Below, in pieces: positions 30,488 through 58,877 of a DNA stretch of 64,000 nt. The position numbers and the translations under genes were made by a program. The number at the start of each line of letters is the position of its first letter. Position 1 is the stretch's first letter. This DNA comes from Apostichopus japonicus (lineage: Eukaryota; Echinodermata; Holothuroidea; Aspidochirotida; Stichopodidae). The notes below the pieces were generated by a model, which had not been told where the DNA came from, did no database searches, and saw only the letters and a list, made by a program, of their open reading frames with translations. The stretch covers positions 28,256,984 to 28,320,983 of the forward strand of contig NC_092564.1 of NCBI RefSeq assembly GCF_037975245.1, written 5' to 3'.

Positions 30488-33400
30488 TTAAACTTTAGAC
30501 AGGGCTCTGACATTGATTTTCACCCATGAGTTGTTCATTACTCCTCGTAGATTCCAAATTTGTTTAAGGTCTTCTGGCATTGTATTGCAAGACTCATCCC
30601 CTGGAAGAGGAAAAAAGAAAGAGGGTTAACAAATTTGTTAACATTCTCTCCACATGTCCGTACGAAGCATTTACAGGGGTGAAAATAAAATGAGTTATGG
30701 CCAAGATCATTGAGGGTGAGTCCCATGTAAAAATTGAATTTCCTACCTTAAGTGGTGCATTCTGGGACTTATTTAGGCTGTAAAGTAGGTCTATATTTAT
30801 GTAATTAAATTAAGTTGTGATTATATCTACCTTATATCTACCTTAAAGTACTATTGTCTCTGTGTACATAGCAGTGTTACATCTTGAGACTGGTATAGCA
30901 ATTTGACCAGTTTGCTTAGCATTATGCACATATCTCCAATATCACACAAATGTTACCCTGGTGCACAGACTAAGTTTCTCTTTTGAAAAAGTTTAAACAA
31001 CCATCTCTTGTATTGTTTGACGATATCAATACCTTATACAAAATTGAAAAACAGCTTTATGGTACAATTTTCATACTTCAAAAGCAGCAGTTGTTTTTTT
31101 TTTTTTGTTTTTTTTTCATACTAAAGATCAAACTACATTGGGGTCTAACATTTTACCACCAGTTGATAGAAATAAAATTAGAATATAAATGCATGTTCTG
31201 ACTTCTTGGTGACTAAAATAAGCATTATATTGTTAACACATATTTATGGCTCACCTGAACTTCCTTTCATAATCTTTCTGTTATTTTTGCATATTTTTGG
31301 GGGGGATTTTTGTTTTGAAAATCTTCATTTCAATAGCTTTCTTACCATCCTGTTTGAAGGTAAAATTGATCACTGTTTCGTAATATTCACCCTTTCCCTC
31401 CCCATTCCCATTGTCCTCCCCTTAACCCACCCCCACCCCCCCATAAAAGGAAACTCTGGTCTAACATACAAAGATGAATGTTAAGTCAAACCTTTATATA
31501 AAAAGAGGCGTTCAAAGAGTTATCTTCTACTTTCCCAAGTGTAAGGTATGTTTGTTTTTCCAGTTAATGAGGAAACCTCAGACTATTTAACAGCTGGTGC
31601 ATCATCATGCGACATGACAGCAAACCAGATCTTGTAAATATGGGAGAGGAAACTTACATGCACGGCATATTATTGTACAGGGTGCTGGCATAGACATCAC
31701 AGGCAACTCCCAAAATTCCCAACTCCATTTTGTCAAATGTGAGCCAGTTTTCTGGTTGTGAAGATCCGAAAATAATCGAGCTGTCTCCCAACTTGATCCG
31801 TTATCCAACGAAACGTCTACCCTTGTTATTCTGAAGGAACGTAACAAGCAAAAATATAGTAGTTATCAACAAGCGATTCGATTTGAGTAAAATCACATCG
31901 CACAGTTTTTCACCGGACCTCAACATATTCGCATGTAACATCGCATATATCTTATCCTCTGCTGCTTGAGGTGTGTTTTAAGCTTTGTTAGCATTTACAC
32001 AGATATTTTCATCAAAGATCAGGCAATATTCTTCATACTTCGCATCCAGCATAAGAAATCTACCACAGAAACTCCTTGGATTTAGAGCCCACGAATGATT
32101 CATTAAACACTATATGATTGCAAAATGCTGAGAAAACTTGAGTTCTATACCGCATAGCTGTGTTCAGTTTTTACATTCTGACATCAGTCGAATACTCTTG
32201 TTGGTATTTTATGGATACTCAAAATGGCACTCAAAACACTTCATTTCCTTGCAAGTGAGACAGGTCTCCCACTGCCAGCACTTGCAATTATCATGAATGG
32301 GTTGAATGTTTGGTCGATGCGGCAAGGATCAACAACCAAATAATCTAACTCTTTTAACGATATGGCAAATGTTAACATTGCAGTAACAATTTGTATACTA
32401 ACACATAAATACATATTAACAACTGTAAGACATAGTCACACAACACCATACAACAGTATTACACTCCAATCTACACCAATTAGGTCACGTACATATTAAC
32501 AACTGTAAGACATAGTCACACAACACCATACAACAGTATTACACTCCAATCTACACCAATCAGGTCACGTACATATTAACAATGGTAAGACATAGTCACA
32601 CAACACCATACAACAGTATTACACTCCAATCTACATCAATTAGGTCACGTACATATTAACAACTGTAAGACATAGTCACACAACACCATACAACAGTATT
32701 ACACTCCAATCTACACCAATTAGGTCACGTACATATTAACAACTGTAAGACATAGTCACACAACACCATACAACAGTATTACACTCCAATCTACACCAAT
32801 CAGGTCACGTACGTAACGATTCTATAGGTTTAAATAAACAGGTTAAATACTAACAAGTTGATAAACAACAAAGAGTAAATATAGATTTAAGTGATTTCCA
32901 GGATTGACTGAAGAAGCAGTGCATAAGATGAAGGACACTTGATTTTATCTCAACAAGAAGTTTATCAGATTAGGCGAGGACAAGGTGAAGGAGTCAGGGC
33001 AAAGAATAACGGGTACTTCCCTTTATCTGCCCTAATCCCCTCCCCCCCCCACCCCTCAGCTTCTCCCACCCAAAGATCAAATTGCAACACTAAAGTTTCA
33101 CATTGCGATGGTGAATACTTGAGTGTCTATTTTGTTTTGAAGATGTAAAATCAACTGACCGTCTACCCCCGCCAGTCAGGGCGTATCCTTTAACGGTGTA
33201 TTTCCCAGCGGGTGAGATGGCTTCCCCATCTGCTGGCTGGCAAATTGCAGCTTGTACTGACATCTCCTGGATGGGTGGTGCTTTGTCCCACCAGTTGTCC
33301 ACAACGTCCCAGTCAACCTAGAATCAAAGTGAGTAGTGGTCTGATCACATGCTGACGCAAGACTCAGCCGTCCCAGACCCAGACAGGATTGCTGCCTTTG

Positions 33401-36400
33401 TAAGTAAATTTGACCATTATAATGTGTTTTTTTTTTTCAAAAGAGAGAAAAGCTAGATGTACGACCACCTTGTGTGTGTTGGCACTGACTACTTGGTTTC
33501 GACTTTTAAGATATGAGACACAAGTGGGGCTCTCAGGCCTTTCCAGAGGAGACCCAATTATATCAGTCAAAGCTATAACATATAACAACTGATCAAAGAA
33601 ACACAATTTGCATAGCCCACTACTTTAAATTTGTGTCCCACAAATTTTAAGGAATTCGACCTCCCCCCTCTTCCAACCATTAAATTCTTTTGCAACACTT
33701 GGAAACTTGTGGCTAATTATTACCTAACATAAGATCGAAAAATTTTGCATTGTATCACTTACATGAAGTGAACAAGTTATATAAGCTTAATATGATATAA
33801 CTTACATGAGGTGAACAAGTTATATAAGCTTACTATGATATAACTTACATGAGGTGAACAAGTTATTTAAGCATACTGTGATATAACTTACATGAGGTGG
33901 AAAAAGCTTATAGTCCTTCACTTGGAAATAGTTTGTCGATTCATGGCTCAGGATTCGAATGGTTTGAAGCCATTTGACAGATCTGTGAAATGAAACATGG
34001 GTGCAGCCATTGAGAAAGATTCACAATTAATATCAAATGACGTAAACTTGTGATGCGCCAGACCCAACGGTTGGGTATGGCTGGACCGGATTTACGGCCA
34101 ACAGAAATGAAAAATCAGTAAAGAATAACAGGACAGGAGAATAAGTTCTTCCTGTTTCATGAGTTGTAAATAAAAATTGTAGTGAAAGAGGGGAAAAAAG
34201 ATCAACAATCATTGTTTACATTATTAAGTAGGTACTACATGTTGGAAAAAACATTTTTTAGTAATCAGAATGTTTCATTAACAACATGTATTTTTGCAGT
34301 TCCCCAAAAATCACAGAAGAACAATTTATCAAAAATTACATTTATAGTTTTATAATTTACATTTTTAGTAGTGACCTCATACCTCCTGTATTTGCCCACT
34401 CTGATTAGGTTATTCTTATATACTGCCACCAATTTCACTTATTAGCTTGCAGACAGTTCCCATTATCATATGACTCAAGAATATATTCTCTGCGTGTTTT
34501 GTTCATCTCGCCTATTTTTCCCGCCCTTTTCAAATTACCATAATAACGGTAGCTCAAACCTGTCATAGCATTGTATAAAATAAGTTAAAAGATTAATTTC
34601 CTTACTTTAACAAGTTTTTAGCTGATTTTATTTTAGAAAAGGATGTTACTTGAATTTAAGTTATAGTAGCAATACCTTCTTGAGAGGGTTTTTCAGGCAG
34701 ATTTGACAAATTATCAAGCAAAGATTATTATTGTAGATCTGGCCGGAGCCACACACACTATTATCATACAGCGAAAAAGTTCAGGCCGAAATTGGACCAG
34801 CCTGTTTATAAACTGTTTGTTCATAGTTTGCATTACCTGTAATATTAATTCTAACTGGAATATCAGAATTGTTGTAAAAGTAAGACATTGAATGCTACCG
34901 GAATATCCAATATAAACACTGCTAGGGTCACAAGGGTCATTAGCCTTGCCACCCAGAGTATGTAAACATGGCTACAAAGGCTTTCAAAACATTTATTTCC
35001 TGGAAGTGTGATCCTTCACGAGATTCACAGTTCACGTGGAGTGTTAAGTTAGACAATGGGAAGTCTCAGCGGGAACAATCAACAAAAAGATCGGCAGTAA
35101 ATAAAAGCTTGTTTGAGGTTTGCAACAGAGTCACCGATACATACTTGACCTTTCCGGCTTTAATTTGGAGGGTAAAACTGACGACATTTAAGGTGTTTGT
35201 CGACTGAAACAGAGAAGATGCCAATGCTATGCACTGAGTAAAGGGGAATTGCAGCAGAAGTAATAATACAATACACAGCTGGGACAGTGACTAATAAATG
35301 GGTGCATACCTTGCACCGATATAGCCCGGCACTATCACCCTCACAGGATATCCATGATCCCTTGGAAGTTGATGGCCATTCATCTGGGTTTCAAAACAAA
35401 GATGGAGAAGGTAATAGGCGGGGAAAAAAAGGAACGTTGGTGCTTAAAACAAACTTACAGTTTCATTTACAAGACATCATTCTAATAGTAACCACATAAA
35501 CATTGATAAACTATTTTGATATTTATCTATGATTTTAGATAACATACCTCACATGTATGAAAAATATGATGTCATATGTTTAAGCGCTTTGAAACACTGT
35601 ATTAAGCGCTATATAAATGTAATTTATTATTATTATTATTATTCTGCTCAAAGCTTCATAACAACTGTTAGCAATTCTACTGTCTCTTGTCTGTGGTTTG
35701 TACAAGCTACCATACCTTTGCGCACACCACCTCACCACCAATCTTTTCCAATTTCCCAATATTTTCAGAAATTTACTGACATACAGTCTAACTTCTCCTA
35801 GTCATTGATGTCTGCCATTCAAAAGTTCTTATCGTTCCAATGTTCGTTATTCATATATCTATGTTGAGGTCTGAAGTTAAGTCTTTGATAAAAGTGACCT
35901 TTATACTAAAACATGAAAGTGTGAAATCAGTAGAAGAGCAATATTAACATTGTACTTATAAATAATAATTAAAACCCATCCTCATTACTAATAGACAATT
36001 CTAGTAAAGACAAAGCACATCAGTCTGTGATTCACTTAAAAGAATTGTACAAATATTTGACTACTCAATGTAAACAGATTGCTGAAAGGGATAAATATAC
36101 AAAGAGAGATAAGGACTCCACTACATATACGCTGTCAGCCAGATGAACACTTTATAAAATTTTACACCAGGCAGACCAACTATGAAAGAATTACAAAAGG
36201 TGGATGAGGGAATAGTAAAACAAAAGGAAGAAAAAAATAGTCATAAAGGCTTTAATTAATTAAATAATAAAGGCTTTAATTAATGGGAAATGTCTGGCTA
36301 TATATCTAATGTTAAACATTCATCTGTACTCAAGATCGGCTAAGGAAAATTACTAGTAAGTAAACTCTTATCAAACCTATGGTTCTCATCTAGTCTTAGC

Positions 36401-39400
36401 AAGAAAAAATAACAAAATCAAGTTTTCTTGTAGGTATATCAGCTTCATACTTAAAACAGAAACTTTGATCGCCAATTTTATCAAACCTAGCAATCTGATC
36501 AATGACACAAAAGATTAACACTGGTAATATGATATGTTATGATATCTATATATATGTTACCTGTAGAGCAAGTATAGTATCTCCTTTGGGATCCCTGAGA
36601 ATACAGTTTGCGAGAGGAAACAGCAGAAGGAGAGAAACAAAAACAATGGGAATCATGAAATAAAAAAGTATAGATTGAAGCATTGACCATACAGCATAAA
36701 AGGATGTAAAAAATGCAACCATCGTTATTGATCTATATGCTGCCGTGGAGATAATTGTCATGAACAACTAAGAAATAACAGAGTGATAGTTAAAAAAATG
36801 TTACCTTCCCCTACCCCCACCCTCCTGTCCCCCATGGTACGACTTTATTAGAAGCATCAGATATCTAAAGTTCATAGTGCAAGATTGTTTTTATTTCTTA
36901 TTATAAAAGATCATTTCAGATTGTGACTAAGCTGCCCAATTAGCGATACATTTGCCAGAACAATTGACTATCGTTGGAAATTATTTGTGAAGGAAATTTT
37001 CTCTTCTTCGTCAAGTTCAACAATGCGCTACGCGTGCTCGACAGTTCCGGTTCAAGTTTGAAGCAAACTATTATCATACAACGAGAAGATCTGTTGTCGT
37101 GACCGCTGTAACGACACTCTAAATATTCATATATCCCATTGAACAACCTGTACTATAAAGAATAGTTACTAATATTGTCCTAATTAATGCTATAATATCA
37201 GTCCTGGTACTATTAATTACTAGCCCAGTATTATGATCAGCAATAAACACTGTTGAGGGTTGTTCTTGCAAGAGCAGACTTGACTGATTAATTCCCTTCG
37301 TCGCCATTCTCATTTTAACGTACATTCTCATTTCAAACGGCCATCATCAAGACCACCCGCAAGTGGGAAAACCCCGGAAATCAGTGGGGAGATGCTGGTA
37401 CTCACATATTGTGTGACTATGAATTAGCTTTTAATTGCTTTGACTTTACGTATAATATTATACTCTATGTAAATCGGTTTCGGAAAGTGAAATCCGCTGA
37501 ATGTAGTAAAACTGTTGCTTCTTCCAGACAAAAACGAAAGCACTTACATTGCTTTGACCATTGGAATTGATGAACCATATCCTCTGTTGTCCTTGCAGAT
37601 ATCTACTCCCTCAAATTCAACATGAAGAGTATCCCAAATGGATTCAAGCTTGAAAAACAAAGAGGGAACAAAATACAAATGGACACAACCGAATGCTGAC
37701 ATAGAAGAAAAAGTCGCTGCCGAGGGAAGGATAATCATAATAATCATGTTCCAGAGACAATCCCTGAGATAAGTGTAAAAGGCAGGTCGGTTATATTTTT
37801 TAAAGTCTCCAAATGAACTACATTACATAGCTAATGGCCCCTACTCCCCACACAGCTAAAACGAAATTAACTTCCGTCAGGGTTTGTGTGGAGCACTGTG
37901 GGCAGTGTGCGGGTTGTTGTGATAACTATAGTATACTGTAACCGCCCCCCTCGCCCCCCATAACTCATGAGTTAGGAGAATTTAATTTGTGGACTGGGTC
38001 ATGGTAGCTAGTGGTGAATACCAGCTATAGGGATCAGATTCTAGCAGACAACATTGTTGCACTTTCAAAATTTAATACTGTCAGCTATTTAATTCTTCTA
38101 CCCCTTGTTACATCACAGAATATTCTAACATGTGGCAATATGGTGACTTACCCTATGCACACATGTAAATTTGTGGTGACTTACCCGATGCACACCTGCT
38201 GCTAAGAGGACATCTTGGAGTCGAGGACCTTTCCAGATGGCGTTACTGATGGCAGCATGTCCCCAAGGAACTCCCTAGAGATATAACCAGGTAGCAGACA
38301 AATACAAGTTCAAATAGTGATACAAGTACCTAGTAACCGTTAAAGTTACGTTATAGATATTATCAGACGTCCGGCTCCCAATTTTCGACGTTTGGTTTTG
38401 AAAATTAAAGCATAACATTGCACTACAGTATTCAAATGATATTGAATAATTAAGTGATAGATTTTACACATTAACTGCCAATTCTGGGAGAGAGGGCCAG
38501 CGATACAAATCAATTAAAAATAATGCAATTTTTCATTCATTTGAACCATCTCCAAATTCACAGGCCCAAGTATTATTGTTAAGGAGACATGCATCGAGGT
38601 CATGACTATTGGACCCAGATATCAGCTAGCTGGCAAAAAAACAAAAAAATGGCTACATGTGTCAAACAGTATTTTCCTAGAGGCTTAAGAAATTGTTTCT
38701 CATGTTTCTACATGAAGGATGGACAAGACACTGACCATTCTACATATATAGTAAATGAGGCTTCTCTATAATAACAACAATAATCAGCATCACATTTTAA
38801 GATGGAGGTTAGGTGAAATATTATCTGTAATTTGCTGACAGGTTTTAGATGACGAAATGCCTCAGGGTATTAAACTGGTCGACCGGGTATTGCAGTGACT
38901 GTAATTTTGAAAACCACAAGTTGCAAATGGTCTAGCTGACCTCACATCATATTTACACAACGGATAAAACTGAGAGACCAATGTCAGCATAACTCATCAG
39001 GGTTTTGCAAACTATGAGAGTGTTAGCAAACTTTTGTTTGGGGGGGTGGAGGGAATAAGATGCGGAAGGGGAGGGAATAAAATGCCTACCAAGACTGTGT
39101 GGTACTAACAGGAAAGATGTTCAAAGTATGTAGAACCTTGACCGAGTTAACAATTCGCCTCCTACGATTGACGTGCTAAACTATAAGATATGCAAACTTT
39201 ACCGAGCCGGTGCATTTATGACGATGGTCAGGCAGAGACCGCAAGGTTATAGTTCTTTTCTCATGTACTACTACACAATATGACCTGCTGTTACTACTAC
39301 AGTATTTTAATACAGGAATACCTACCCTTACTTTCTTTATCTTTGACATTTCAGTTCTCCGATTGCCTGCACACTGTCAAGGAACAAGAAAAGATTGCAG

Positions 39401-42400
39401 GCTGGAATTATCACATTGTTCATATAATGTGAACAAATGCAAGGAATATCCTTGACATCATTATGTCCAGTCAATGCCCTAGTATCTTTAGACATCACTG
39501 TTTATCTTCAGGCATCACCATTTTACTTCAGACATCACTAATTGTCTCCAAGCATCATTATCTGTCTTAGACATCACTACTTGTTCTTAGACATCACTAC
39601 TTGTCTTCAGATATCACTATTTGTTCACAAACATCTATTTGTCTTCATGTATCATTATTTGTTCTAAGGCATCAGTATGTATCTATAAGCATCACTTCTT
39701 GTCTTTAGGAATCACTTTTTTGTCATTTCATCGCTATTTGTCTTAGGCATCACTATGTATGTATCTACAGTATAAGCATCACTATATATCTGTAAGCATC
39801 ACTTCTCATCTTTAGGAATCACTATTTGTCTTTATTTCATCGCTATTTGTCTTAGGCATCACTATGTTTCTTTAAGCATAAGGTGTCACTACTTATCTTT
39901 AGGAATCACTTATTGTCTTCAAACATCACTAGTTGCATATGACAAGCCATACTTACCATAAGGGTGGCCATAACTGTAGCCTGTGGAAAGTCATGCTCAA
40001 GTTGATACATAGTGAGCTTCAAGTCCAATGGAACCAACCCAGTCACTGTGACCCTGTTAAATACACATAAGGGATATAGACACAATATCTAGCGTTATAA
40101 ATCATGGAATCAAAAAGTATTTCGATGCCATACCGACATGCATATAGCATAAACAATGGCGTTACCAATCATAAACAAGCGCAGACAGCTATCTCAAGTG
40201 CCTGATTGGTTGAAAATCCATGTCATAGAATGGTGGTTGCCATGTATTCATTCTTTCTGTCTTTCCAATGTTTCGATTGGTTGATCATCCATGTCCTAAA
40301 ATGGTGGTTGCATGTATTCATTCTTTCCAATGTTTTGATTGGTTGATAATCCATGTCATAGAATGGTGGTTGCCATGTATTCATTCTTTCTGTCTTTCCA
40401 ATGTTTCGATTGGTTGATCATCCATGTCCTAAAATGGTGGTTGCATGAATTCATTCTTTCCAATGTTTTGATTGGTTGATAACCCATGTCATAGAATGGT
40501 GGTTGCATGTATTCATTCTTTCAATCTTTCCAATGTTTCGATTGGTTGATAATCCATGACATAGAATGGTGGTTGCATGTATTCATTCTCTGTCTTTCCA
40601 ATGTTTCGATTGGTTGATCATCCATGTCCTAAAGTGGTGGTTGCATGTATTCATTCTTTCCAATGTTTTGATTGGTTGATAATCCATGTCATAGAATGGT
40701 GGTTGCCATGTATTCATTCTTTCTGTCTTTCCAATGTTTCGATTGGTTGATCATCCATGTCCTAAAATGGTGGTTGCATGTATTCATTCTTTTCAATGTT
40801 TTGATTGGTTGATAACCCATGTCATAGAATGGTGGTTGCATGTATTCATTCTTTCAATCTTTCCAATGTTTCGATTGGTTGATAATCCATGACATAGAAT
40901 GGTGGTTGCATGTATTCATTCTTTCTGTCTTTCCAATGTTTCGATTGGTTGATCATCCATGTCCTAAAATGGTGGTTGCATGTATTCATTCTTTCCAATG
41001 TTTTGATTGGTTGAAAATCCATGTCATAGAATGGTGGTTGCATGTATTCATTCTTTCAATCTTTCCAATGTTTCGATTGGTTGATAATCCATGTCATAGA
41101 ATAGAATGGTGGTTGCATGTATTCATTCTCTGTCTTTCCAATGTTTTAATTGGTTGATAATCCATGACATAGAATGGTGGTTGCATGTATAGATTCTATC
41201 TGTCTTTCCAATGTTTCGATTGGTTGATAATCCATGTCATAGAATAGAATGGTGGTTGCATGTATTCATTCTCTCTGTCTTTCCAATGTTTTGATTGGTT
41301 ATAATCCATGACATAGAATGGTGGTTGCATGTATAGATTCTATCTGTCTTTCCAATGTTTCGATTGGTTGATAATCCATGTCATAGAATGGTGGTTGCAT
41401 GTATCCTTTCTTTCTGTCTTTCCCATGTTTTGTGTTGATATGATTCGGTCATGACAATCCATACTGTACTGGTCAAATAATTGTGATCCAATGTTGGTAG
41501 AAATGTTACTAACCCATCAATTCATCTTCAGACATTCCCACCTAACCATTCCACCTCTTTCCATCATTTCATTTAAATTATTCATGTCACTAAACCTCAT
41601 CTTAACCTTCACCAGCTCATTTGACTGACATTTTCCATTTCTATTTATCCACATTTCACCCACTCTGCTACTCCTCTTTAACCCTTGTTTGCTCCCAGGA
41701 CAAAGTAAACTAAAACTTTAGGGAGTAAATACAGCTCAGAGAACTGTCAACCTGATCTGAAGGAGGTCTACAAAGTTCAATGTTGTACATACGTTGAAAC
41801 AACTCGATTTAGGAGCTATCACCATAATTATATTTTTTATTCATAGTATATTTGTAATTTATCAGTTTCTTGTCCCCATAAAGTGGCATGGTTATACGGT
41901 ATTGTGATGACCAAAGACTATCGCTTCAATAACATTAATTTCTGTCTACACACATATATAAATATGTATATATATATATATATATAGGATGTACTATATT
42001 GTGACTGCATTATGTGAATGAAAACCTATCAATTTAAGTAGCGACTCTACAGAGTGTGCTCATGATGTGTGGAGCTTTACCCGGTACCCAGATGGATGGA
42101 GCCAATGGGTGATAAAGTGTAACATTCAAGTAAACAAACAAATTCAGTGCCAAACAGATCTGGGTTTGTTTCTGCCAACAGAAGATGAACGATCCTACCC
42201 CTAAATGAGGGAACAATGATCTATTCTGTGATTCCAGAAATCTTCTGTTGTCCATTCAGTCAGAAGGAATGTTGTAGTGATTAAATGTTTAAAACTCACT
42301 CAATTCTACAAACATGGGCATGACATGACTATGCAGCATGGTACAAATTTATAAGTAAAGCGAGAGTCATTGTAATGTTTCTGTAGGACCTACACATAAT

Positions 42401-45400
42401 AACATCATGTAATGTCAAGTTTTGGTTATCGGCTGTGTCTTGTGAATTGATGTAACTAGATATTTAATTGTGAACTTTGTAATACATGCTGTCCCTATAT
42501 TATTCTACATTACAGGATTACTATAATTTTCAAGTAAGTTTGTAGTGCAGTGCCTGAACTTCACAGAGATTGTTTGCTAAGAAGAGAGCCCTATATGGTC
42601 ACTGACATTTTACAGCATACTTAAACTTATTGGCCTTATATCTTAATATCTCAGAAAGATTTCCCAAATTTTAAACTTCTCTAAAGTTATTTGTTGTTGT
42701 TAATTCAGCCGTAAGCAATTCTTTGAGTCATGTAACCTTATATGACACCTCTATAGGGCATTGTAATGTACACATCCAACTGAATCAACATTGTAAGTAT
42801 CAGTACGTCTGTATACTGCAGCTGTATATACAAGGCAGTCAAATCTGTATTGAAATCACTATCCACTATCACACTGGAAGTGAAATTTTTATTTTTATCA
42901 GCATATTTCACTCTTTTCTGAGTCTGTCATTGAACGATGAATTTGCGATTTTTTTTATACCTGCCAATCAATAATCAATCAATAAACCCGAAAAGAAATG
43001 GCCAATACATATGTTGTTGCCACCAAATACAGTATTAAAAGGGCTGAAAGCTCAGTAGAGTGCTGGGCTTGTGAACCCTTGGAGAGGTTACTGGTTAGAA
43101 TCTGGCTCTAGCCATACATTTCTGTGCTTTTTTCCAAAGCCTAATAAATGGGGAGATAATACATCCTCTGAACTCGATCCTCATTATTTTCCTACTTCAA
43201 CATCTGGATTCATCTGGATATCTGGACTCTGTGAAGTTCACTAGGTCAGTGTTACACTATTGACATATGTAGTGTATCAAGTACAAAGACAACTACCCAA
43301 AGTTTTATCAGTTCTGGGAATAATGTCAGTTTACATTGGGTATGTAGATCTGATTAACACCAACTCACACAACGGCCTTGAAATAGAAGGTTGTTTTTAA
43401 TGACAGTGAGCTGCAAATAAAGTGTCTGTCAACTAATGAACAGGCCACCACCTCTTCAAGTCAAGTACTCATTGATGACAGATTATAAACTAGTTAAGTA
43501 CTGATTGCCAGGTTGTTGATTAAACCCGGTTAATTGGTAAGCTCATGGCAATCTCCTTTGATTGTATTGGTGTATAAACAATGCGGAAGTATGGGTTCTT
43601 TGTTAGTTTCATTCTTCACATTGTGACGTGACAATACATAATTACTGACACACTCGTTGCCACTTTCAATATTTCCACCGTGGCCCCAACGAAAATGGAA
43701 CGTCCGGGAAAACAGCATTTTGGCTGCTTTTTCAATATTTCTTTAATGGCCTAGTGCCAATTAAGAGGGACAAAATGGTCCCTGAAAATTGTCATTTTAA
43801 TGATGTTGTTATCTTTAAAACTTAGGCATTATCACTACCAGCCCAACAAAGTGTTAATTACTGGTTAACTTACTTCAATGATGTTGCAAGAAGTAGTAGA
43901 TTTAGGATTGTTCAGACAATGGGTTCGTGCACAGTGTTGTGAATAGGATTCTATGCATATATACATGCGCTAATGTTTTGTACAAACAGACCTGCCCAGA
44001 GTAACCCAATGATGTACCACACAAGTTTTGTCCGATCAAAGACACAACATTCACGTAGGGCGCCACCATTTTCAATCGGTTTTAATTTAGGAGATTCTCC
44101 GATGCCAAATGTCGACCAGTCTGTGCTAACTATATGTCTACTGCGTAGATGAATTGACTGTTTGCTTGCTTTATTCTTATGTCAGATATTATTATGGTTG
44201 CCAGAGTGCGGTTACGCTGATCAGTTTTGCATTTGACCATTTCATCTGTATTTGGGTATCAGTGATGGGCTTACAGACCACGTAGAACAAATGAACAAAC
44301 CTTCATTTGTTTATGTCTTGTGTCTGCAGTCTACCAAACAACTGGAACACCCCCCCCCCCCTACAATGACTATGTGTGGGAGGCAACAAACATGTATGCC
44401 CAAGGGCGTTGGAACCGGGGTGGCTGGGGGGGCGCCAGCCCCCCCAGTGAAAAATATGGAGGGGCGGAAGTATCATTCCGCCCCCCGCTTCGCAAGTCCG
44501 AAAACCCCTTTTTCATATCCAAATAAGAAAAAAAATCTCATTTGGAGCACCAAATTGCATCTAAGGCCAGGTAAAAATGCAAAATTATATACAAAATGGA
44601 GTGGGTGGGCTGAAGTGTGCTATATTGCACCAAATTGCATCTGAGGCCACCTGGAAATGCAAAAAAGTTCCAAAGGGGAGGGGGAGACCCGCCTCTTAGA
44701 CCCCTCCCAAAGGCTGGCCATCAGTCTTCAGCCCCCCCCCCCCACTCAAAAGTACCTTCCTACGCCACTGTGTACGCCTACACTTTGGTAAACATGGTGG
44801 CAATTTCAAACTACCTATCACAACCTGACAAGGTTAAGCTAAAAGACCCCCAATTACAACAAACTGCTACAACCTAAGCCTAATGGTGTGTAGCAACTAT
44901 CTACTCACAATGCTTCTAAGTCTATTTCTGACACACTACACACTTGAACACCAACATTTCATTAATTAGCAAACTCTAGAATGTGGGAAATAACGATAGA
45001 AACTATTACTACACTCCTTATCTACAGTACAACTCTAGTATATAGCGAAAACAACAATCTGTTATTAACTGCCTCAGGCAAGACACTGTTGTAATGTTTG
45101 GTATATAAACATAAAGGACAAAGTTTTACCACTGTAGCATCAATGCTTTATGTGATAACTATATATATATATATATATATGTATGTATATGTACCACAAT
45201 ATCATGAATCCACAACACCTGTACAGTATATTCTTATCATGCTGAAGTACCTAACAAAGTGTACATTACTGCAATTTACAATTTAAAACTATCAGTATTA
45301 GGCCTACATCTAGCATAAAAGTTCCTTGTAGATCAATGACACCATACTATAAAATGGCCTTGTTTTTTGTATTGTTTTTTATGTTTCACCTCGTTTAAAA

Positions 45401-45838
45401 TGGCTCACGGTCCCTCTTCTAAAGACCATCTTCATGTACGATGTACATAATGTCATAATATAATAACTTAACATTCTACTTTAAACTTAAGCAGCTCTAA
45501 CTGCTGGAATTCGGATTCACTTTATCTCCCTCATATCGCTTCTAAAACTTTACATCTTTTCCCTCACAGATTTCAGAATATCCTGTGATGTGAAGGAGGA
45601 GACAAAACAGGGAAAGAGATAATACTGTAGTGTAGACATACATTAAGGGTGGTGCAACTTACACATGGTCAGAGCCATTGAGGACCGGTACTGGTGCATG
45701 ATTACGTATGTAGAATTGGTCGGTGGGTGTTACAAAATGTTCCCGAAGAACGCTTATCGGCGGTTCTGCATTAAATGGTCGACTTTCATTGACAGTCATG
45801 TTGCTGGCTCTCTTGGGTTCATGGTTGTAAGCTGCCAT
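30488..45838 (-). CDS. SUOX: Sulfite oxidase, plant-type (no cytochrome b5 domain), 11 coding exons, complete
   Basis: Oxidises sulfite to sulfate at a molybdopterin-bound molybdenum; last step of sulfur amino-acid breakdown. Coding exons, 5' to 3': 45838-45663, 40053-39957, 39373-39326, 38274-38185, 37648-37548, 36594-36561, 35383-35310, 33982-33892, 33317-33160, 31830-31658, 30600-30488. All introns are GT-AG, all phases agree, and the joined product is 384 aa. Visible motifs: [10 protein letters not shown] (residues 42-51, substrate arginine), CAGNRR (92-97, Mo-ligand cysteine C92), [10 protein letters not shown] (188-197), WNLRGV near the C-terminus. The molybdopterin domain spans about 30-205 and the Mo-co dimerisation domain about 235-380. 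The ATG at 45838 was chosen because the first exon runs straight into the Mo domain. No heme b5 domain or clear mitochondrial presequence precedes it, unlike vertebrate SUOX; the length matches plant sulfite oxidase (about 390 aa). The protein ends in SKV, a weak match to a peroxisomal SKL-type signal. A non-coding 5' exon upstream is possible. Identity is secure; localisation is inference. Confidence 0.93.
32411..32813. repeat. 80-bp minisatellite, five copies, in a sulfite oxidase intron
   Basis: ACATATTAACAACTGTAAGA starts at 32411, 32491, 32571, 32651 and 32731, an exact 80-bp period with only single-base differences (for example TTAGGTCACGT versus TCAGGTCACGT). Lies in the intron between exons 33160 and 31830. 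Confidence 0.95.
33757..33905. repeat. 43-bp tandem repeat carrying the exon 8 splice donor of sulfite oxidase
   Basis: ACTTAC (GTAAGT on the minus strand) occurs at 33886-33891, 33843-33848, 33800-33805 and 33757-33762, exactly 43 bp apart, each within a near-identical unit that also copies the end of exon 8 (CACCTCAT, or CACTTCAT in the last). The first is the donor used in the model; the other three lie in the intron. Reading on from the first donor meets a TAA within the second unit. Confidence 0.9.
35540..35642 (+). mobile_element. CR1/L2-type LINE 3' tail
   Basis: TTAAGCGCTTTGAAACACTG then AAGCGCTATATAAATGTAAT followed by (TTA)n is the typical 3' terminus of L2/CR1-clade LINEs or SINEs that borrow it. 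Only the tail is recognisable. In an intron of sulfite oxidase. Confidence 0.65.
39478..39935. repeat. Degenerate ~20-bp tandem repeat (CATCACTATTTGTCTT)
   Basis: More than 20 diverged copies of a unit like AGGCATCACTATTTGTCTTC, with variable spacing. It ends about 20 bp from the donor of sulfite oxidase exon 2 (exon end 39957) and fills most of that intron. Confidence 0.85.
40200..41425. repeat. 1.2-kb satellite-like array, about 18 copies of a 60-75-bp unit with an inverted CCAAT box
   Basis: GATTGGTTGA recurs about 18 times (for example near 40204, 40274, 40336, 40408, 40469, 40539, 40608), each followed by a segment like ATCCATGTCATAGAATGGTG. Spacing alternates between about 70 and 62 bp, and two subtypes (TTTCGATTGG...TCATCC and TTTTGATTGG...TAATCC) interleave, indicating a higher-order repeat. 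It lies at the 3' end of sulfite oxidase intron 1, starting about 150 bp from exon 2. The short open frames within it are repeat products. Confidence 0.95.
41955..41990. repeat. TA microsatellite
   Basis: TATATATATATATATA stretch in intron 1 of sulfite oxidase. A second lies at about 45162-45180. Confidence 0.85.
43035..43150 (+). mobile_element. Possible tRNA-derived SINE head (diverged)
   Basis: AAGCTCAGTAGAGTGCTGGG resembles a tRNA A box, and GGTTAGAATCTGGCTC, about 45 bp on, resembles a decayed B box. The expected cloverleaf is degenerate, so it is a SINE or pseudo-tRNA rather than a working gene. Confidence 0.45.
44401..44770. mobile_element. 370-bp hAT-like MITE
   Basis: The left end CAAGGGCGTTGGAACC and the inverted right end (CAGTGGCGTAGGAAGG on the minus strand) are imperfect inverted repeats. 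The flanks TGTATGCC (44393-44400) and TGTACGCC (44771-44778) form an 8-bp target duplication with one mismatch. The interior is rich in G- and C-runs and repeats a GCACCAAATTGCATCT segment at about 44547 and 44626. It lies in intron 1 of sulfite oxidase; the open frames over it are not genes. Confidence 0.75.
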
Positions 45839-46084
45839 CTTCACAGACAGACAAATTAGAACTGCTGAACTGATGTGGAAATAATATTAACAATATATAT
45901 GATATAGAAAGACTTGAGTTGAAAGTACAGTGTCTTTTCCATTAAAAACCTGCACGAGTCTAAGCTGAGCTGGGTTTTCATACAAAAAATTTAACAAAAA
46001 TGGCTCAATAAAAACCTTGGAAAGAAGTCTTCACTTCGGAAAAACAAGCAGCTTCAGTGTTCACGCCACCTTACCTGAGACAGC

Positions 46085-47390
46085 GTATGGGCCTAAGCCA
46101 GCCTAATAGACCAATAAGTTTGCTCTCATACATTAATAAGCTCTTAGAGAACACCACTAAATAATGTATTTGTCCAATTCCAAAAAATAACCATTGCTAT
46201 TTATGATTACCAGTTCCGCTTCAGAGTAGATCATTTAATTCATCACGCTTTAATTTGAAATCATTTATAGACATGATTCACTTTGACCTTGATATCGGAA
46301 ACAATGTACAAGTTTGGATAATACCTTGATCTCAAAAAGGTTTGTTATAGTTGATCATTCCATTCCTCTAATGAAACTTTCTCATTATGGTATTCATGGT
46401 AAGGCATATATGATATTCTATCAAGCTACTTATAGGAAACAGTGTAGTATATGTTTATATTTATATACCTTAATCATACCTACTCTCACTATTTACATGT
46501 CTCCACCCAGTGTTTCACAAGGGTCTGTTCTTGGGACTTGTTGTTTCTTATCTATGGAAATGATACTACGAGAGCCACCCAGTTGTTTCAACATGTCTAT
46601 TTGCTTGGATAAGGATTGTACTAAGCTATTCAATCAAGTTAATTGTACTCTTAGCCAGCTTAAGTTGCGTCTAGCAAACTTACTTTACATGTTAGCAAAT
46701 ACAAACTACACTATTTTTCATGCCAGTATAATAACAACCATGCTTGCTATGTGAGTTTCAATTTGGATCGAATTGAAATTAATAAATCTTCAAGTATAAT
46801 ATATACTCAGGTTTATTTATTGATGATTGCCTATCCTGGCAGCATTAAGTGGGGTTAAGTACACTGGTATGTTTAATCACATTAAAGATATCCTACCAAT
46901 TTTAACAGCAATTCAAGTTTACTAATATTCTTTCATATATTCTAAAATTTCATATGCTATTGAAGTCTTCGGAACAGTTTTGTACCATGAAGCCATTTCA
47001 AATTACGCAAAATATGTTAGTTAAACTGCTCACTGGCAACAGAAGCACTCTTCCACTAATTTACTTTACAAGAAATCATATTACATGAAAGTCAGTGATA
47101 TTCACACATACTATACTGTGTTTGTGGTATAATTTACAAGTGTTGTAATGGTTGCTTCCGACTGTTGTATACAATTGTCTGAGTAACTATAGAAATTATA
47201 TAAATTACACATAATTTTAATTTAATTTCAATTACCCGACATAACACCCACCATGGCAAATTACTTCTAAATAACAGCTAAAATGTAAAATTTGGCAAGT
47301 CATCCCAAGTGATATTAATATTAATCATGTAAAAGTCTGTTCTTTTCAACAAAAATTCAAACGACACTTAATTAATCAGTATTGGTATTA
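46085..47390 (+). pseudogene. Decayed LINE reverse-transcriptase (ORF2) remnant, CR1/Jockey-like
   Basis: Plus-strand translation, jumping between frames, shows the RT blocks in order: NRPISLLSYINKLLEN (about 46105), YQFRFRVDHLIHHAL (46210), a remnant of the AFDTVDHSILL block as FVIVDHSIPLMKLSHYGI (46335), VSQGSVLGTCCF in place of VPQGSVLGPLLF (46515), then a thumb-like segment QNMLVKLLTGNRSTLPLIYF (about 47000) and a terminal FKRHLINQYW (47360). The catalytic YADD box is not recognisable, and frameshifts and stops are frequent, so the copy is dead. Confidence 0.8.
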
Positions 47391-48107
47391 CTCATAATGC
47401 TCTCTAGTGTTGTTTCCCTTTCTGTGACTTCCATAGTTTTCTCATTGTTCCAATTGTATTTTTCTTTCCGGTTAGGCCTTCTCTTTTTCTTCTGGTCACC
47501 AGCTCTGATGAGCTTTCTTGTTTTTTTTTTTTTTTTGTAGTGCCAATCAAAAGTGTAACTAGCCTACACCTGTTTCTTATCATTTTGTCATTTATTACAG
47601 TAAGTGCATTTGAATGGAGCTAAACATGCCAATGTATAAAAAGTAAGCGAAATGAGGAGTACACCACTATACTGGGCTAGGCCTAGGACACTAACTTTAG
47701 TTATTAGCACATTAATATGGCTAACTATAGTAAAATAGCTAACTTTTAATACACCGTGATCCTTTCCATTTTTAAATCTAAGACAAACCTTGTAAAGCCG
47801 CCCTCTCACCAAAACTAGCTGTAAAACGTTGGTTTATATCCTACACTGTCTACATCAGTTCGTCGACCAACGGCTGTTTCGACACGCTTACGTACGTCAG
47901 GCCTACGTGTACGTGAATTGTCGTCTGCAATGTACACACACCAATACAAAATTAACATGAATCGAATGTGTATTATCTTTGAACTTTATCTAGGTTACTA
48001 GGCCTAGGTATTCACACATTGAAGGACTCATGAAAGCTCCCTATAGCTATATGTATTACTTGACGGGTCACTATCGTGAAGTTGGAGGCGCTAGCACCTT
48101 TCTAAAT

Positions 48108-48137
48108 CAGAGCCGTATATCTAAATATACGGCTCTG
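48108..48137. repeat. 13-bp perfect inverted repeat with 4-nt loop
   Basis: CAGAGCCGTATAT (48108-48120) and ATATACGGCTCTG (48125-48137) surround CTAA and could fold as a hairpin. One arm (CAGAGCCGTATAT) recurs alone at 25808-25820, 26 bp past the outer transposon, so this may be the terminus or collapsed remnant of a MITE. Confidence 0.8.
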
Positions 48138-48621
48138 TCTAAATGTACAAAAATGCTGATAGTGCCATCAGTTTGCACGTGAAAAGTTTTCAATAACCTT
48201 TGACCTTCCGCGAGTCCAACACTTTGATCAGCTCCGATCCACAGAATTACTAAGCTCCGATCCCGGTAGTAAGAAATTAACTTTTATTGTATTATTGTGT
48301 GGACTGTGGAGCGATACCCATATCACTATATCAGCTAATGAAAAGACACCGTTAGTACATGTATGCCTTACTGTATCATGTATGTGATTGGTTGCCATAC
48401 ATACAGCATATACTACTTACTAGAGCTATACAGTATATCCATTGCTAAAAGTAGAACGCTATTCTCAGTCCACACCTAATTCATGCCTAAAGCGCAAAAT
48501 AGTCCCAACGGAAGGGGGAGGGGGGGGGGTTGAGTGATTTTTTCGGGTTGGTGGCCCCATGTCCATGTAGTTAGCAGGCTGTCAACAGTTTTGTTAAATT
48601 TATAATGTACATGAATATCAG

Positions 48622-48897
48622 CAGGCGCGTAGCCAGGAATTTGCCAAGGGAGGGGCGAAACTGTAGATTCGGCATTGCAAACTATCTAAGCGTAGCGCCA
48701 CCATGAGTTGGCGCGAAGCGTACAAGAAAATTTTGGCTGTAAATGCCTCCCAGGTCGCTGGAAATGGCACTTCCCATGCCTTGTTAGTTGCATCTTAGCA
48801 TTTTCTCTTTTGAAAATACTAGCGATATCATAAAAAAAAAATTTAAATTAAAAATATGCTCAAGGGGGGGGGGGGGGGGCGGCTGCCCCTTCGCCTG
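48622..48897. mobile_element. 276-bp hAT-type MITE with perfect 8-bp target duplication
   Basis: Flanked on both sides by AATATCAG (48614-48621 and 48898-48905). Short inverted ends CAGGCG...CGCCTG extend imperfectly into CAGGCGCGTAGCC and its partner. It contains GCGTAGCGCCACCATGAGTT and the following CGCGAAGCGTACAAGAAAAT, almost identical to the interior of the element at 24570-25421. No coding capacity. Confidence 0.88.
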
Positions 48898-49687
48898 AAT
48901 ATCAGACTCCGCAATAGATTGAGGGAGGATCAGACCCAAACTCGGTGTTAAATTAGTACTCAGTACTGATCAGCGCGGACTTTTAAGTTTCATTCTTTGC
49001 TATTCGTGGATTGTGACACAATAGAAGCACATGCCAGTTAGAGATATGTTACAGCACTATGCAAAATCTTTGAAGACACGGCTTATAGTTTCACGCATGT
49101 TCTTTCCTTTAGCAAACCTCAACTTGCAACCGTGGGTCTAATAGAGTAGCATCATGGCGTCCAATGTAAAATCGCAGCGGTTCAAAATCAAATGATCTTG
49201 TTTTAATCCTGAACACAGAGTGACGTGAAAATAGTAACCGGTAACTATGTGCGCTTCTTTGAAGCGCACATAGTTTTGTGTACAATTTGCACGAGTAACA
49301 TCATGTTATTTGAAGACCTCGAAATATAGTCGGTCTCACACATAGTTAATTTATGATACCGGCTCGCAACTCCAGCAATTACACTTCTGATCCGTAATGT
49401 AAACCCAGCGTCATTTAAATAACACCAGAAAGAAATAAGAACTGGGCAAATATTGCGCAATCTTAAAATGACAGATAAAAATTGTTTGTGTTACTAGGAA
49501 ACAGTTTTATGACACTGTATAACCTATCTGAACAAATAATAATAATAATCAGCAGTTATTTGTACGATGCTCAAGTGACCACAAATGTAGGAGAAACCCA
49601 AAAGGGCTTATGGATTACAACTTTCACGTCGGGTGGCTTCCAATTTAACATTTTAACTGAAATTTGGAATCATTAATTTAGAAAGTC

Positions 49688-49838
49688 ATTTCAGATGGAA
49701 AAACCGTAGATTGCTCTTGGATGAAAACCCCACCTTACTATGACTCTGTCGGGTATCGAACCTGGAACCTCCTGAATGCTGAGCCTCATGGCTTCAAATG
49801 CCACCGCCTTTATACACTCTGCCACAGCACCAGTATGA
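49688..49838 (-). mobile_element. tRNA-derived SINE, family A
   Basis: Minus strand: GTGCTGTGGCAGAGTG (A-box region), GGCGGTGGCATTTGAAGCCA, a B box GGTTCCAGGTTCGATACC, then a shared body AAGGTGGGGTTTTCATCCAAG. It matches the copy at 58286-58420 over its full length with scattered differences. Acceptor-stem pairing is poor, so it is not a working tRNA. Confidence 0.8.
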
Positions 49839-52167
49839 CAATCAAGATATATGAACTTTTCTGACATCATGTCAGGATCCCAATGTAGTCTTGTGATACC
49901 ATTCATTTATAGGAGATGATAATTAATACAAAAATCCAGTACCTTATAGCAGCCTGCCACAATTGTTTGCAAGAATTTTTAGATATGAGTGGTGTTATTA
50001 AAAATGCTCTTCATTTACAGTTTACAGACAGTGAATCCTTGAAATCTGTCACACTCTACAACCTTGGGAAATGATCAGACCTCTCCCATTCCTCTTTCTT
50101 GGTGGAGTGCAAGTAGTTGCACAGGTAATTTGCAAATAATGTCAAGCTCATCAGTCAGCAAGCAGATGTTACTGTTTTTTCAAATTTCTGTTTTCTATAG
50201 TTGCTAGGTCTCTGGGATTCTACATTTTGCACAATATTTTAATCGACATGGCATTTCCCCAGCAGATAATGAATATTTTGTTTTGCTATACTAAAATAGC
50301 ATTTCTTAATATTGCAATAATGGTCTACTAACATGTTCATCTATAAGAAAGTCATAACAACATGCAATTATGGAGAAATTGAATCGTTGAAACTAGTAAA
50401 GACAATTCCGTCCTACTCAATATTCATGAGATCCTGAATAACCTAACAGGGACCCTTCCTGGTTCAGAGTCTGTCACTGCAGCAAGCAACAAGTTGCAAA
50501 CAAAAAATGACTGACAGTTCTGGAAATTTAGTGTTTTCAAAACATGAGCATCTCATACACTAACACACCCACAAGCAAAATCTGGAATGCATTAAGTTCT
50601 GGGTGAGTCCAGCATATTGAAAACAAGTAAAGAAAAAAGAATATGCAAATCTCTCTTTTTTTCTCAAAATGACTCTTTTATTTCCCAAATCCTACATTAT
50701 TAGATCTATCTATTGAATTAGGTGAAATATATGAAAAAAAATTATGACAAGAGATTATAATATGATTTTTGAATAGAGTATATACTGTCTACTTTAGATG
50801 CACCATTAATTGTTGACAGGTTTGTCTTCTTTGATGACGGTGAATATAATAATAACGGACAATGATGGCAACTGTAGTCACAGCAGGATGTGTGTCAGAT
50901 GAGCCAACACCTTTGCATTCTTCAAATTACTGATTAAGTCCATTTCAGTCCAAAGATTGTTTACATATTGAAGGAGATAAATGCTCCCTTTGTATATGAA
51001 CATTTTCCATAAATCAACAAGTATATAGAGAAATACTACGAGCAGTATTAAAAGCATAATTTCAAGATTGCCATCAAAATTAGGTAATATCACAAGCTGA
51101 ATTTTAATATCTTATTTCACCATTTCTTGTAAGACTCACCAGCATCATAAACATTTGACCTCATGAAAAGGTCTGGAATACAAGAAAAGTTCCTTTTCTG
51201 AACAACTTCGATAGTTTATATAGTGTTGGAGGATGACATCATGACATTTTATGTGGAAAACCTTTCAACTTTCGGTAACAAAAAGTTACCCTGGAAATGG
51301 CTGACAGTATGTATACGATATTATTACTTTTTTTTTTTTTTTTTTTTTTTAGTTCTGACGGTATTAATATCTACCATAATGCAAGGAAGCATTGATGTTT
51401 TATTTCACCTAATGGTAAACCTTAACTTTTAAATTCATACATTTCAGGAAAATTATTCAACTGCATTAATGCTTTAGCATTCCAATAATAAGATTTCAAT
51501 ATTTACTTTACCTGTACATTTCTGAATCTCGAGTAATATTTCTCAGCTCATATGCAAAGTCATTATTTTCTACATTTGACATTTAAAATATAAAGTCAAG
51601 ATTACTTTAAACAAAGACAAAAGGGTGTATTACAAATGATTAAAATACTCAAAATATGAAAGACTTTGACATGAGATGATAGCTGATAGAGCACTCCATA
51701 GTTGAACTACCTCAATCATGGCTTCATATCTATTGCCAAGAAATGTTCTGTGAAATAAGAAGAGATAATGTTGACAAGGATATTTGTGTGCTTGAAAAGG
51801 AAGTCAAAGTTGGCAATATTTCGTTTGGGGTATATTTATCCGTAGAAATAAGTCTGACATTCACTGAATACTGAGCCAAAATCACAGACTGAACATTTAT
51901 TAATAATAAGCAGTCAAGTTTATTGCTTGAAGATCATGTGATGATTAGTATGCATTCAAGGGCAAATCCATGATTTTAAAGGAGGGGATGTGGCTCTGAG
52001 GTCATTAAAGTGTACTCTGATTGCAAGTTCCTTCGCCATTCCTCCTCTGCCCCACCCCCCTTCCCCGGCCACAAAATGGTGTATTCTGAGGCATATTTAG
52101 GCTATACATTAGGCCTCTACTTATATCTACATACCAGATTGTGTTAATAACTATTCTATTTATATAT

Positions 52168-52173
52168 TTTATT
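52168..52173 (-). promoter_or_regulatory. Polyadenylation signal AATAAA of the EGF/SEA gene
   Basis: Reads AATAAA on the minus strand, 77 nt downstream of the TAG at 52250-52252. The position fits a short 3' UTR for the membrane-protein gene. Confidence 0.55.
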
Positions 52174-52249
52174 GTTGTTACAGGTTGTTATTTTTGAGGG
52201 GGGGAGGGGGGAATCAGTTGTTTTGCTCATTCACCTGTTGATGCCGTGA

Positions 52250-55200
52250 CTACCAGGCTGAGGTTTTCAGATCTCTCTCCATATCTGAGTACGGTGGTGG
52301 ATCAGATGATGTTCTTGACATAGCATCCATCTCCATAGATTCAGGAATAGTAGCCATCTCCACAGAATCAGGGACACGCTATGAAAACAATTTTATTATT
52401 AGAAATCAGGTATTGGCCTCAAATATTAATTTCTTTTGAACTTCTAGAATTAAAGAAGTATTCATTTCAATGACACAGGTTGCAAATATAAATAATATAA
52501 TCAACAACCAGTTATTCAGGATATCTTAATATTTGTACATTGTTTGACAAGTTACAGTTTGGACATTATATGAAATAACACTGGTTAAAATCCATAGTTA
52601 AATGAATAAATATTTTGTTGTTTTTGCGGCAATAAAGATTATCAGAATCAAAACTAAAAATAAAGATGTTATATATACATACCCCTTTTTGTATACTAGC
52701 AAACTCTGAACCATCAGCGACCAGGGGTACCTCAAATTCTTGTCTCTGAGAAGAGCCCTCTGTTTCGTCATCAGAGTAAGCATGATTATATACTGGAAGG
52801 TTTTGACCATGCCTACTCATCCTCTCCTGTTAACCCAAAAGTAAGAGATGTTACTTTAGAAGCCAGCTTGTTACGTACTTAATCATTCGCTATATCTAAA
52901 CACTGAGAAATCACTAAAACAACTGTCGGCACACTACCACTCATTACTAATCAGATGAAAATAGAACATGACTGATAACTTATATGCTCATGTAACCAGA
53001 AGAGACCGCTACACAACCATCGATTACAATAACCATCATGTAACCAGTGGTGAACTGGTACACCATCATTATAGTAACCATCATGTAACCAGAAAAGACC
53101 GCTACACAACCATCGATTACAATAACCATCCTGTATTACAATAACCATCCTGTATTACAATAAGTGATGATCGGGTACTCAACTACCAATTACAATAACC
53201 ATCATGTAACCAGTGGTGAACTGGTACACCATCATTATAGTAATCATCATGTAACCAGTGATGATCCGGTACTCAACTACTGTAACCGGTGGTGATGATC
53301 TGGTATGCTGCCCCTCAACGTGAATACAATGGCATCACTTACATTCAAGAAGTCTGCATGACGGAGCACATCTGTTAGATGGCTTAACCGTTTCTCGTCG
53401 TGTCTGATATTCTCTTCACTGTAATCCTCCAGCTCATCCTGCATCTCCATCTCCTCCTCAGCCAATTTCCTTGCGAGCATGTTCCGCACCACTCCGATAT
53501 CCCTGATCGGTCTTCTGTTGGGATAACGCCTTTGATGAGCCATCCGTTGCATAGCTTCCCTCTGCTGTTGCTCCCAGGCACGTTTCTTGGATTGCATATT
53601 GAATACCAAGAAACAGCAGCAGCATGCACTGAGAAGAACCACCATAAAGACTACTATAACCGCTAATATCACCAGCAATGAGGCTGGACTGTTGGTTCGA
53701 TCCTCTGGAAGCACAGATGGAGTGGTAGCTGGTTATGAGTAGACACAAAAAATAATTCAAATAAAAATGTCAAAAAAGACCAAAACAATGAAACAGATAC
53801 AAAAATGAAGGTACTTTGTCTAACGTCAAACGAATGTCCAATTAGGAACTAACAACTTCTCTTCTTCACCTACAGCTTAGACTTAGTAACATCCAATAGG
53901 ATTAATAGTGCAAGACCATAGGATTAATAGTGAAATACCATAGGAGCAATAATGGAATAAAATAGGAGTAATAGTGAAATACAATAGGGTTAATAGTGAA
54001 ATACCATTGGATTATTAGTAAAATACAATAGGAGTATTAGTGAATTACAATAGGAGTAATAGTGAAATACAATACGATTAATAGTGAAATACAATAGGAG
54101 TAGCGATAGAATACAAAAGGAGCAATAATGGAATACAATAGGAGTTATGTGGAAACTATGGGGAAAAGACATGAAACAAAACAGGGGCAAATAATGGAAT
54201 TGAAAGGGGAACACAATAGGATTGAAGAGTGGAAATACAATAATGGAATACAATAGGAGTAATAGTGGAAAACAATAGGATTGAAATTAAGATACCAGAA
54301 GATTTATAATGAGGAAGAAACTATGGTTTGTACAAATTACCTGTATTCAAAAGTTTTCAGGTTGCAACTAACTAAGGCAAAAAAACAAACCCTAGAAAAG
54401 TAAGTTCCAAATCTGAATCAATTTGGTAATTTTAAAATTATTATTCCATCCCGATCACCTAATACTCATTGCTTTATTCTATTGATATCAAAAGTTAGCA
54501 TATGAAAGCAAAAAAAAAAACTATTATAAATAAGTTTCTATAGGTCCTTGATTGTTATTTCCTGAAAATGACTTTTGAAATAAACTTTTTGGGGGATAAT
54601 GTAGACACAAGTAATCCTCAGAATGCATAAAAGTACTTTTAAAATAACTTCAGCAATAATTAGGAAGTGACATACTTGTTACTGAGCCAGACAGATGACA
54701 ACGGTCACCAGTAAATTCAGGGGGGCATCTGTAAAACAAAAGAGAGAGACAACATTGAATAGGTTTCCAAGATCAGCTTGCTCACATTATGATCAGATCC
54801 TTGTATTCTCTTGCCATATATTCCAACTTGCACACTTCGTTACTCCAACAAACTGTATTTAACTGTTCCTAAACCACGCTTAAATGGTTACAGAAGCTTC
54901 GAATACTCTGCCTCTTATCTCTGGAACAAGTTACCAGATCACATTCCAACATGCTATAAACTTTCTACTTTCAAAAGTCTACTTAAGACCCACTTTTTCA
55001 CTTGTTCTTTTGTAAATTAATTTACTTTCTTTGTTAAGGGCTTTGAGCAGTGACTTTTGTTTACTGATTTGGCGCTATATAAGTCTCATTTTTTATTATT
55101 ATTATTATTGATCAATACATGCACACTGGCAACACGTAAGAGATAGATTCCTTAACCAGCTTTTGCATCTGGTCATCAATCTATGGCATATTTTATACCA

Positions 55201-58846: not shown

Positions 58847-58877
<31 letters not shown>

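Follow-up and report, generated by a model that had tools for sequence, protein, structure and literature searches.

A predicted heme-free sulfite oxidase gene in the sea cucumber Apostichopus japonicus

We analyzed a 64,000-nucleotide stretch of the sea cucumber Apostichopus japonicus genome (contig NC_092564.1, positions 28,256,984 to 28,320,983), here called the window, whose own coordinates are used throughout. Its minus strand carries a gene for a sulfite oxidase (SO, gene name SUOX) of 384 amino acids. Judged from its sequence, this animal enzyme is probably complete, functional and heme-free, and it most likely comes from an old heme-free eukaryotic lineage, not from a recent loss of the cytochrome b5 (b5) domain. 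The conserved active site, the missing b5 signal and the position of the protein in sulfite oxidase trees speak for this reading. Published accounts place animal sulfite oxidase in mitochondria, as a heme enzyme with cytochrome c as electron acceptor, and in humans a deficiency has grave consequences (PMC10574614; this and the other papers are cited for the parts of their text that were available).

The gene and its product

The gene model was rebuilt from open reading frames, the reading of splice junctions and a scan for microexons. It runs from 45838 to 30488 and contains 11 coding exons. All ten introns are GT-AG and measure 0.5 to 5.6 kb, and all phases are compatible. The joined coding sequence of 1155 nt encodes 384 amino acids and a stop in an unbroken frame. 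An earlier note on this DNA had proposed an 11-exon gene, and the independent rebuild reproduces both the exon number and the outer coordinates. For exon 6, AG..GT/GC segments of fitting phase were scanned between exons 5 and 7. The 34-nt exon is the single clear candidate, scoring 36 versus 6 for the runner-up. The exons are:

45663..45838, minus strand: exon 1, with candidate start ATG at 45838 in the context GAAGATGG; short N-terminus, PFNAEPP motif and substrate arginine R45 (chicken R138)
39957..40053, minus strand: exon 2, acceptor acag, donor gtaagt
39326..39373, minus strand: exon 3, CAGNRR with the molybdenum (Mo)-ligand cysteine C92 and R97
38185..38274, minus strand: exon 4, W111 (chicken W204)
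37548..37648, minus strand: exon 5 of the joined gene model
36561..36594, minus strand: exon 6, the 34-nt microexon; TILALQ, versus VLLAYE in chicken and Arabidopsis
35310..35383, minus strand: exon 7, H192 and R197 (chicken H283 and R288)
33892..33982, minus strand: exon 8, SVKW and DYK with Y231 (chicken Y322); donor inside a 43-bp minisatellite
33160..33317, minus strand: exon 9, start of the dimerization domain
31658..31830, minus strand: exon 10, dimerization domain
30488..30600, minus strand: exon 11, WNLRG with R366 (chicken R450); C-terminus ALSKV, stop TAA

The minisatellite spans 33753-33912 and takes in the 5' splice site of exon 8 and the 21 nt of the exon before it. Within it, CACCTCATGTAAGTTATAT occurs in three exact minus-strand copies (starts 33795, 33838 and 33881), which places the exon 8 donor in tandem. 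Another tandem array, with reported periods of 333 and 70 bp, lies within intron 1 (40204-41430).

Pfam assigns two domains to the protein, Oxidored_molyb (1.5e-55) and Mo-co_dimer (3.1e-39), and nothing else above cut-offs. The best PDB matches of a rough exon join were 2a9d (4.4e-74), 1sox (1.9e-73) and 1ogp (7.7e-67). We take the first two to be chains of chicken sulfite oxidase and the third to be the Arabidopsis enzyme. BLASTP gives the protein 47% identity with chicken sulfite oxidase and 44% with that of Arabidopsis; between chicken and Arabidopsis the figure is 49%. The NCBIfam models for bacterial sulfite dehydrogenases, three equivalogs, gave 140-186 bits, against cut-offs of 420-600.

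The active site is intact in the alignment. R45, C92, R97, W111, Y231 and R366 align with chicken R138, C185, R190, W204, Y322 and R450, whose catalytic role and numbering we assume here, and all six are kept. The substrate arginine, the Mo-ligand cysteine, the dimer domain and the ALSKV end that the earlier note had read are all present in the rebuilt protein. The PDB listing names a C185S mutant. The active site of human sulfite oxidase is described as including Arg160 (PMC10574614).

Conservation was assessed in an alignment with 77 of 80 kept bacterial relatives (340-600 aa). A column counted as conserved when 70% or more of the bacteria have the same letter. The sea cucumber protein departs from 29 of the 146 such columns, the chicken enzyme from 32 and the Arabidopsis enzyme from 40. 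Together with the six kept residues, these counts argue that the protein is not a decaying copy. A pseudogene was rejected on this conservation and on the unbroken joined frame. A eukaryotic nitrate reductase was also rejected: the protein has only the two Mo-family domains, no b5, FAD or NAD reductase part, and a stop at 30488. The gene is a believable eukaryotic sulfite oxidase of the Mo domain family, for which sulfite oxidation is predicted.

The upstream interval and the heme domain

The earlier note had described the protein as lacking the heme domain. This agrees with our searches, which returned no b5 signal on either strand of the 64 kb while a positive control worked. Pfam found no Cyt-b5 domain in the 384-residue protein. 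A tblastn search of the window with the chicken b5 domain gave chance matches only (best 20.4 bits, E 0.65), and from 45 to 64 kb the minus strand is free of HPGG motifs. A profile of three b5 domains, two of which were provisional sequences, was also run against the 3,519 frames of 12 aa or more on the two strands. Its best score was 4.2 bits, and no b5 exon was found. As the control, five pieces of 25-60 aa were taken from around the HPGG motif of a single yeast b5 domain, also a provisional sequence, and added to the frame set; they scored 27-45 bits. Since all of them bear HPGG, this sensitivity applies to HPGG exons, and a b5 core cut by an intron could escape. The earlier note had named transcripts joining upstream b5 exons as evidence that would overturn its reading; in the window DNA these searches found no such exon. 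The interval concerned is:

45839..52568, minus strand: upstream interval, without a cytochrome b5 exon or HPGG motif in these searches

Beyond it, the same-strand frames at 52569-63543 look by eye like another gene, perhaps for one cell-surface protein. Its end near 52.6 kb, about 6.7 kb upstream of the sulfite oxidase start, leaves limited room for missed exons. These frames include a calcium-binding epidermal growth factor (EGF) exon at 63256-63543 (EGF_CA/EGF_3), cysteine-rich frames without a Pfam name, and, at 53280-53732, a transmembrane-like frame whose Pfam matches are all sub-threshold.

ATG 45838 is likely the true start, and its context is good by eye. The reading frame stays open for 48 nt before it, to 45886. 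Two AGs in this stretch, giving exon starts at 45864 and 45861, reach 1.8 and 1.2 by a rough scoring in which the acceptors of the ten modeled introns range from 0.4 to 12.5. Further upstream, AGs at 45949 and 46074 score 3.5 and 2.5; these would serve only a 5' untranslated exon, because an in-frame stop lies between them and the ATG. Exon 1 with its upstream extension matches no Pfam family by itself. The first 30 residues after the ATG contain 3 basic and 3 acidic residues and 4 prolines, unlike a presequence. By this charge and proline count, and provided that the start is right, no presequence is evident, as the earlier note had stated. The N-terminus aligns both with the start of the heme-free Arabidopsis enzyme and with the linker of the chicken enzyme.

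We consider it unlikely that the gene is an ordinary mitochondrial animal SUOX whose b5 and presequence exons were missed, either because the b5 core is split or because the exons lie far upstream. The open frame and its two AGs, which score within the range of the modeled acceptors, would suit such exons, and the protein, after its putative start, matches the linker between the b5 and Mo domains of chicken SO. The known animal enzymes also fit this explanation. Vertebrate and Drosophila sulfite oxidases are described as mitochondrial and heme-bearing, the Drosophila enzyme with molybdenum cofactor and heme (PMC5817353). Caenorhabditis elegans SUOX-1 is 49% identical to the human protein over 471 positions (PMC3216388) and was assayed by cytochrome c reduction (PMC9793310), which together imply a b5 domain. 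Against missed exons stand the negative b5 searches, with a control sensitive to HPGG-bearing fragments, the lack of HPGG upstream on the minus strand, the neighboring gene recognized by eye, and the trees, in which the protein does not stand beside chicken.

Position in the sulfite oxidase tree

From 257 bacterial relatives 80 were kept. Leaving out L050 and L077 and taking lengths of 350-470 aa reduced these to 74, of which the first 40 rows went into a 40-bacteria tree and a tree to which a human sequence was added. Five further trees used 74, 12, 30, 19 and the same 19 bacteria. The seven trees share rows and are not independent, and their eukaryotic rows are three enzymes, or four with the human sequence, which is provisional. 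A search for relatives among viral contigs gave none from 146 pattern matches.

In the 40-bacteria tree the sea cucumber, chicken and Arabidopsis enzymes form one clade (100/99), which is also found in the five further trees. The sea cucumber protein lies outside chicken plus Arabidopsis in all seven. Support for the branch that excludes it is 99/91 with 40 bacteria and 97/92 with the human sequence added. In the five further trees, which use other bacterial sets or a simpler model, it is 89 (Shimodaira-Hasegawa-like approximate likelihood ratio test, SH-aLRT, alone), 99/93, 94/79, 92/87 and 85/51. Letters that differ from the bacterial majority are shared by chicken and Arabidopsis at 26 positions, by the sea cucumber and Arabidopsis at 23, and by the sea cucumber and chicken at 18. 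Trees and shared derived letters together argue, with moderate weight, against a recent b5 loss from a vertebrate-like enzyme.

A different history, which we regard as quite unlikely, is that the gene is an animal SUOX paralog whose b5 exons were lost at a more recent date and whose fast change pulled it wrongly outward in the trees. The approximately unbiased (AU) test keeps a pairing with chicken (p 0.06), and one with vertebrates when the provisional human sequence is included (p 0.475); identity is also slightly higher to chicken than to Arabidopsis. The end branches of the 40-bacteria tree speak against fast change: that of the sea cucumber protein is 0.74, near chicken at 0.70 and shorter than Arabidopsis at 0.97. 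The derived letters it has in common with chicken are also the fewest of the three pairs.

Several observations weigh against the reading that we favor. The AU test keeps both alternative pairings of the sea cucumber protein, with chicken (p 0.0605) and with Arabidopsis (p 0.0596), and with the human sequence it keeps those with vertebrates (p 0.475) and with Arabidopsis (p 0.462). Plain identity is higher to chicken, as given above, and only the three or four eukaryotic enzymes were placed. Where the bacterial majority letter is kept, the sea cucumber shares it with chicken at 30 positions and with Arabidopsis at 13, and chicken shares it with Arabidopsis at 27; here the 30 versus 13 is the adverse comparison. 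At the 5' end, an upstream acceptor could by its score join exon 1. The positions of chicken Q184 and Q439 are methionine in the sea cucumber protein (glutamine in 72/77 and 76/77 bacteria), and LAYE in the microexon region has become LALQ, so kinetics or acceptor may differ. Finally, the green alga Chlamydomonas is reported to have a b5-bearing SUOX (PMC6321594), so the b5 domain may predate animals and may have been lost where heme-free enzymes occur.

On balance, an old heme-free eukaryotic lineage is the most likely descent suggested by these comparisons, rather than a vertebrate-type SUOX with recently lost b5 exons. The earlier note had named a tree nesting the protein inside ordinary animal SUOX, with recent exon loss, as a result that would overturn its reading. 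The seven trees favor the note's reading here, and the AU values leave it qualified.

Predicted function and comparison with known enzymes

By homology with the chicken enzyme, sulfite would be oxidized to sulfate at a molybdenum-pterin center held by Cys92, with Arg45, Arg97, Tyr231, Trp111 and Arg366 around the substrate. As there is no b5 domain for relay to cytochrome c, the electrons would most likely pass to molecular oxygen and yield superoxide and peroxide, like in the plant enzyme. The apparent lack of a presequence suggests work outside the mitochondrial intermembrane space. The enzyme may be active in the cytosol, or in peroxisomes if its SKV end is recognized.

A peroxisomal location, which the earlier note had raised, is left as a candidate. 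The SKV end fits the broad pattern for peroxisomal targeting signal type 1 (PTS1) that a zebrafish survey applied (PMC8919083), and one list of signals validated in plants includes it (PMC3427985). The survey gives SKV as the end of zebrafish Fndc5, and the mouse counterpart is brought to peroxisomes by its PTS1 (PMC8919083). The pattern fits one of the 80 bacterial relative frames. On the other side, it also fits 2,638 of 46,848 zebrafish proteins (5.6%), and human ACOT1, which has the same SKV end as ACOT2, is cytosolic (PMC8919083). The SKV terminus is thus weak evidence for peroxisomal targeting. No PTS2 pattern is present in the 384-residue protein.

If the prediction is true, an animal would have a peroxide-producing route for removing sulfite that needs neither heme nor the respiratory chain. 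Such a route could persist under blocked respiration, for example by sulfide. A heme-free animal enzyme would also help to date when eukaryotic sulfite oxidases gained or lost the heme domain, which is reported from a green alga (PMC6321594) and is absent in Arabidopsis. Only tentatively do we extend this to other species: some animals may retain an ancient heme-free SUOX that split off before plant and b5-bearing animal enzymes diverged, uses oxygen independently of mitochondrial respiration, perhaps inside peroxisomes, and has been overlooked alongside the mitochondrial enzyme or in its place.

The rest of the window is described briefly. Its sequence is repeat-rich, with 36.5% GC, and Rfam and tRNA scans of it gave no matches. 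Repeat content, GC, the intron lengths and the EGF exon look metazoan, and an origin in another kind of eukaryote, where such a heme-free enzyme would surprise less, is very unlikely. A 102-bp repeat occurs in six copies at 28819-29434. As 102 is a multiple of three, a minus-strand frame stays open through the array for 210 aa, and it has no Pfam family above cut-off. A plus-strand frame at 54793-55017, without a Pfam match, resembles by eye the end of a non-LTR (long terminal repeat) retrotransposon open frame.

Heme-free eukaryotic SUOX is already a published, named class, 'without Cyt-b5' (PMC6400420). The earlier note's description of an overlooked enzyme therefore holds for its occurrence in an animal only, which would be new; the text available on this class lists no animals, and the parts available of the literature searched contain no report of a heme-free animal sulfite oxidase. 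Among them, a survey of molybdenum use reports the trait in all Metazoa examined and, in the text available, makes no mention of animal SUOX without b5 (PMC6147048). The interest of the gene lies in its animal host and its tree position; it is likened to the named class here by the described domain make-up.

Among individual enzymes, Arabidopsis SO (PDB 1OGP) is similar in being heme-free, with Mo and dimer domains only, a short N-terminus, nearly the same length (393 versus 384 aa) and a C-terminal extension ending in a possible PTS1. The plant enzyme passes electrons to oxygen and ends in SNL, which is shown to target it to peroxisomes (PMC10574614), whereas the SKV of the sea cucumber protein is a candidate signal. 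At 44% identity, Arabidopsis SO is also not its closest tree partner. Chicken mitochondrial SUOX (PDB 1SOX) has the same Mo and dimer domains, 47% identity and the six catalytic residues. It differs in its N-terminal b5 heme domain; the sea cucumber protein shows neither b5 nor presequence. The bacterial enzymes SorA, SorT and SoxC and their GTDB relatives have the same two domains, with 38-45% identity of the best segment (80 of 257 loci). The sea cucumber protein differs from bacterial sulfite dehydrogenases in scoring far below their equivalog cut-offs, and the three eukaryotic enzymes form a clade apart from the bacteria.

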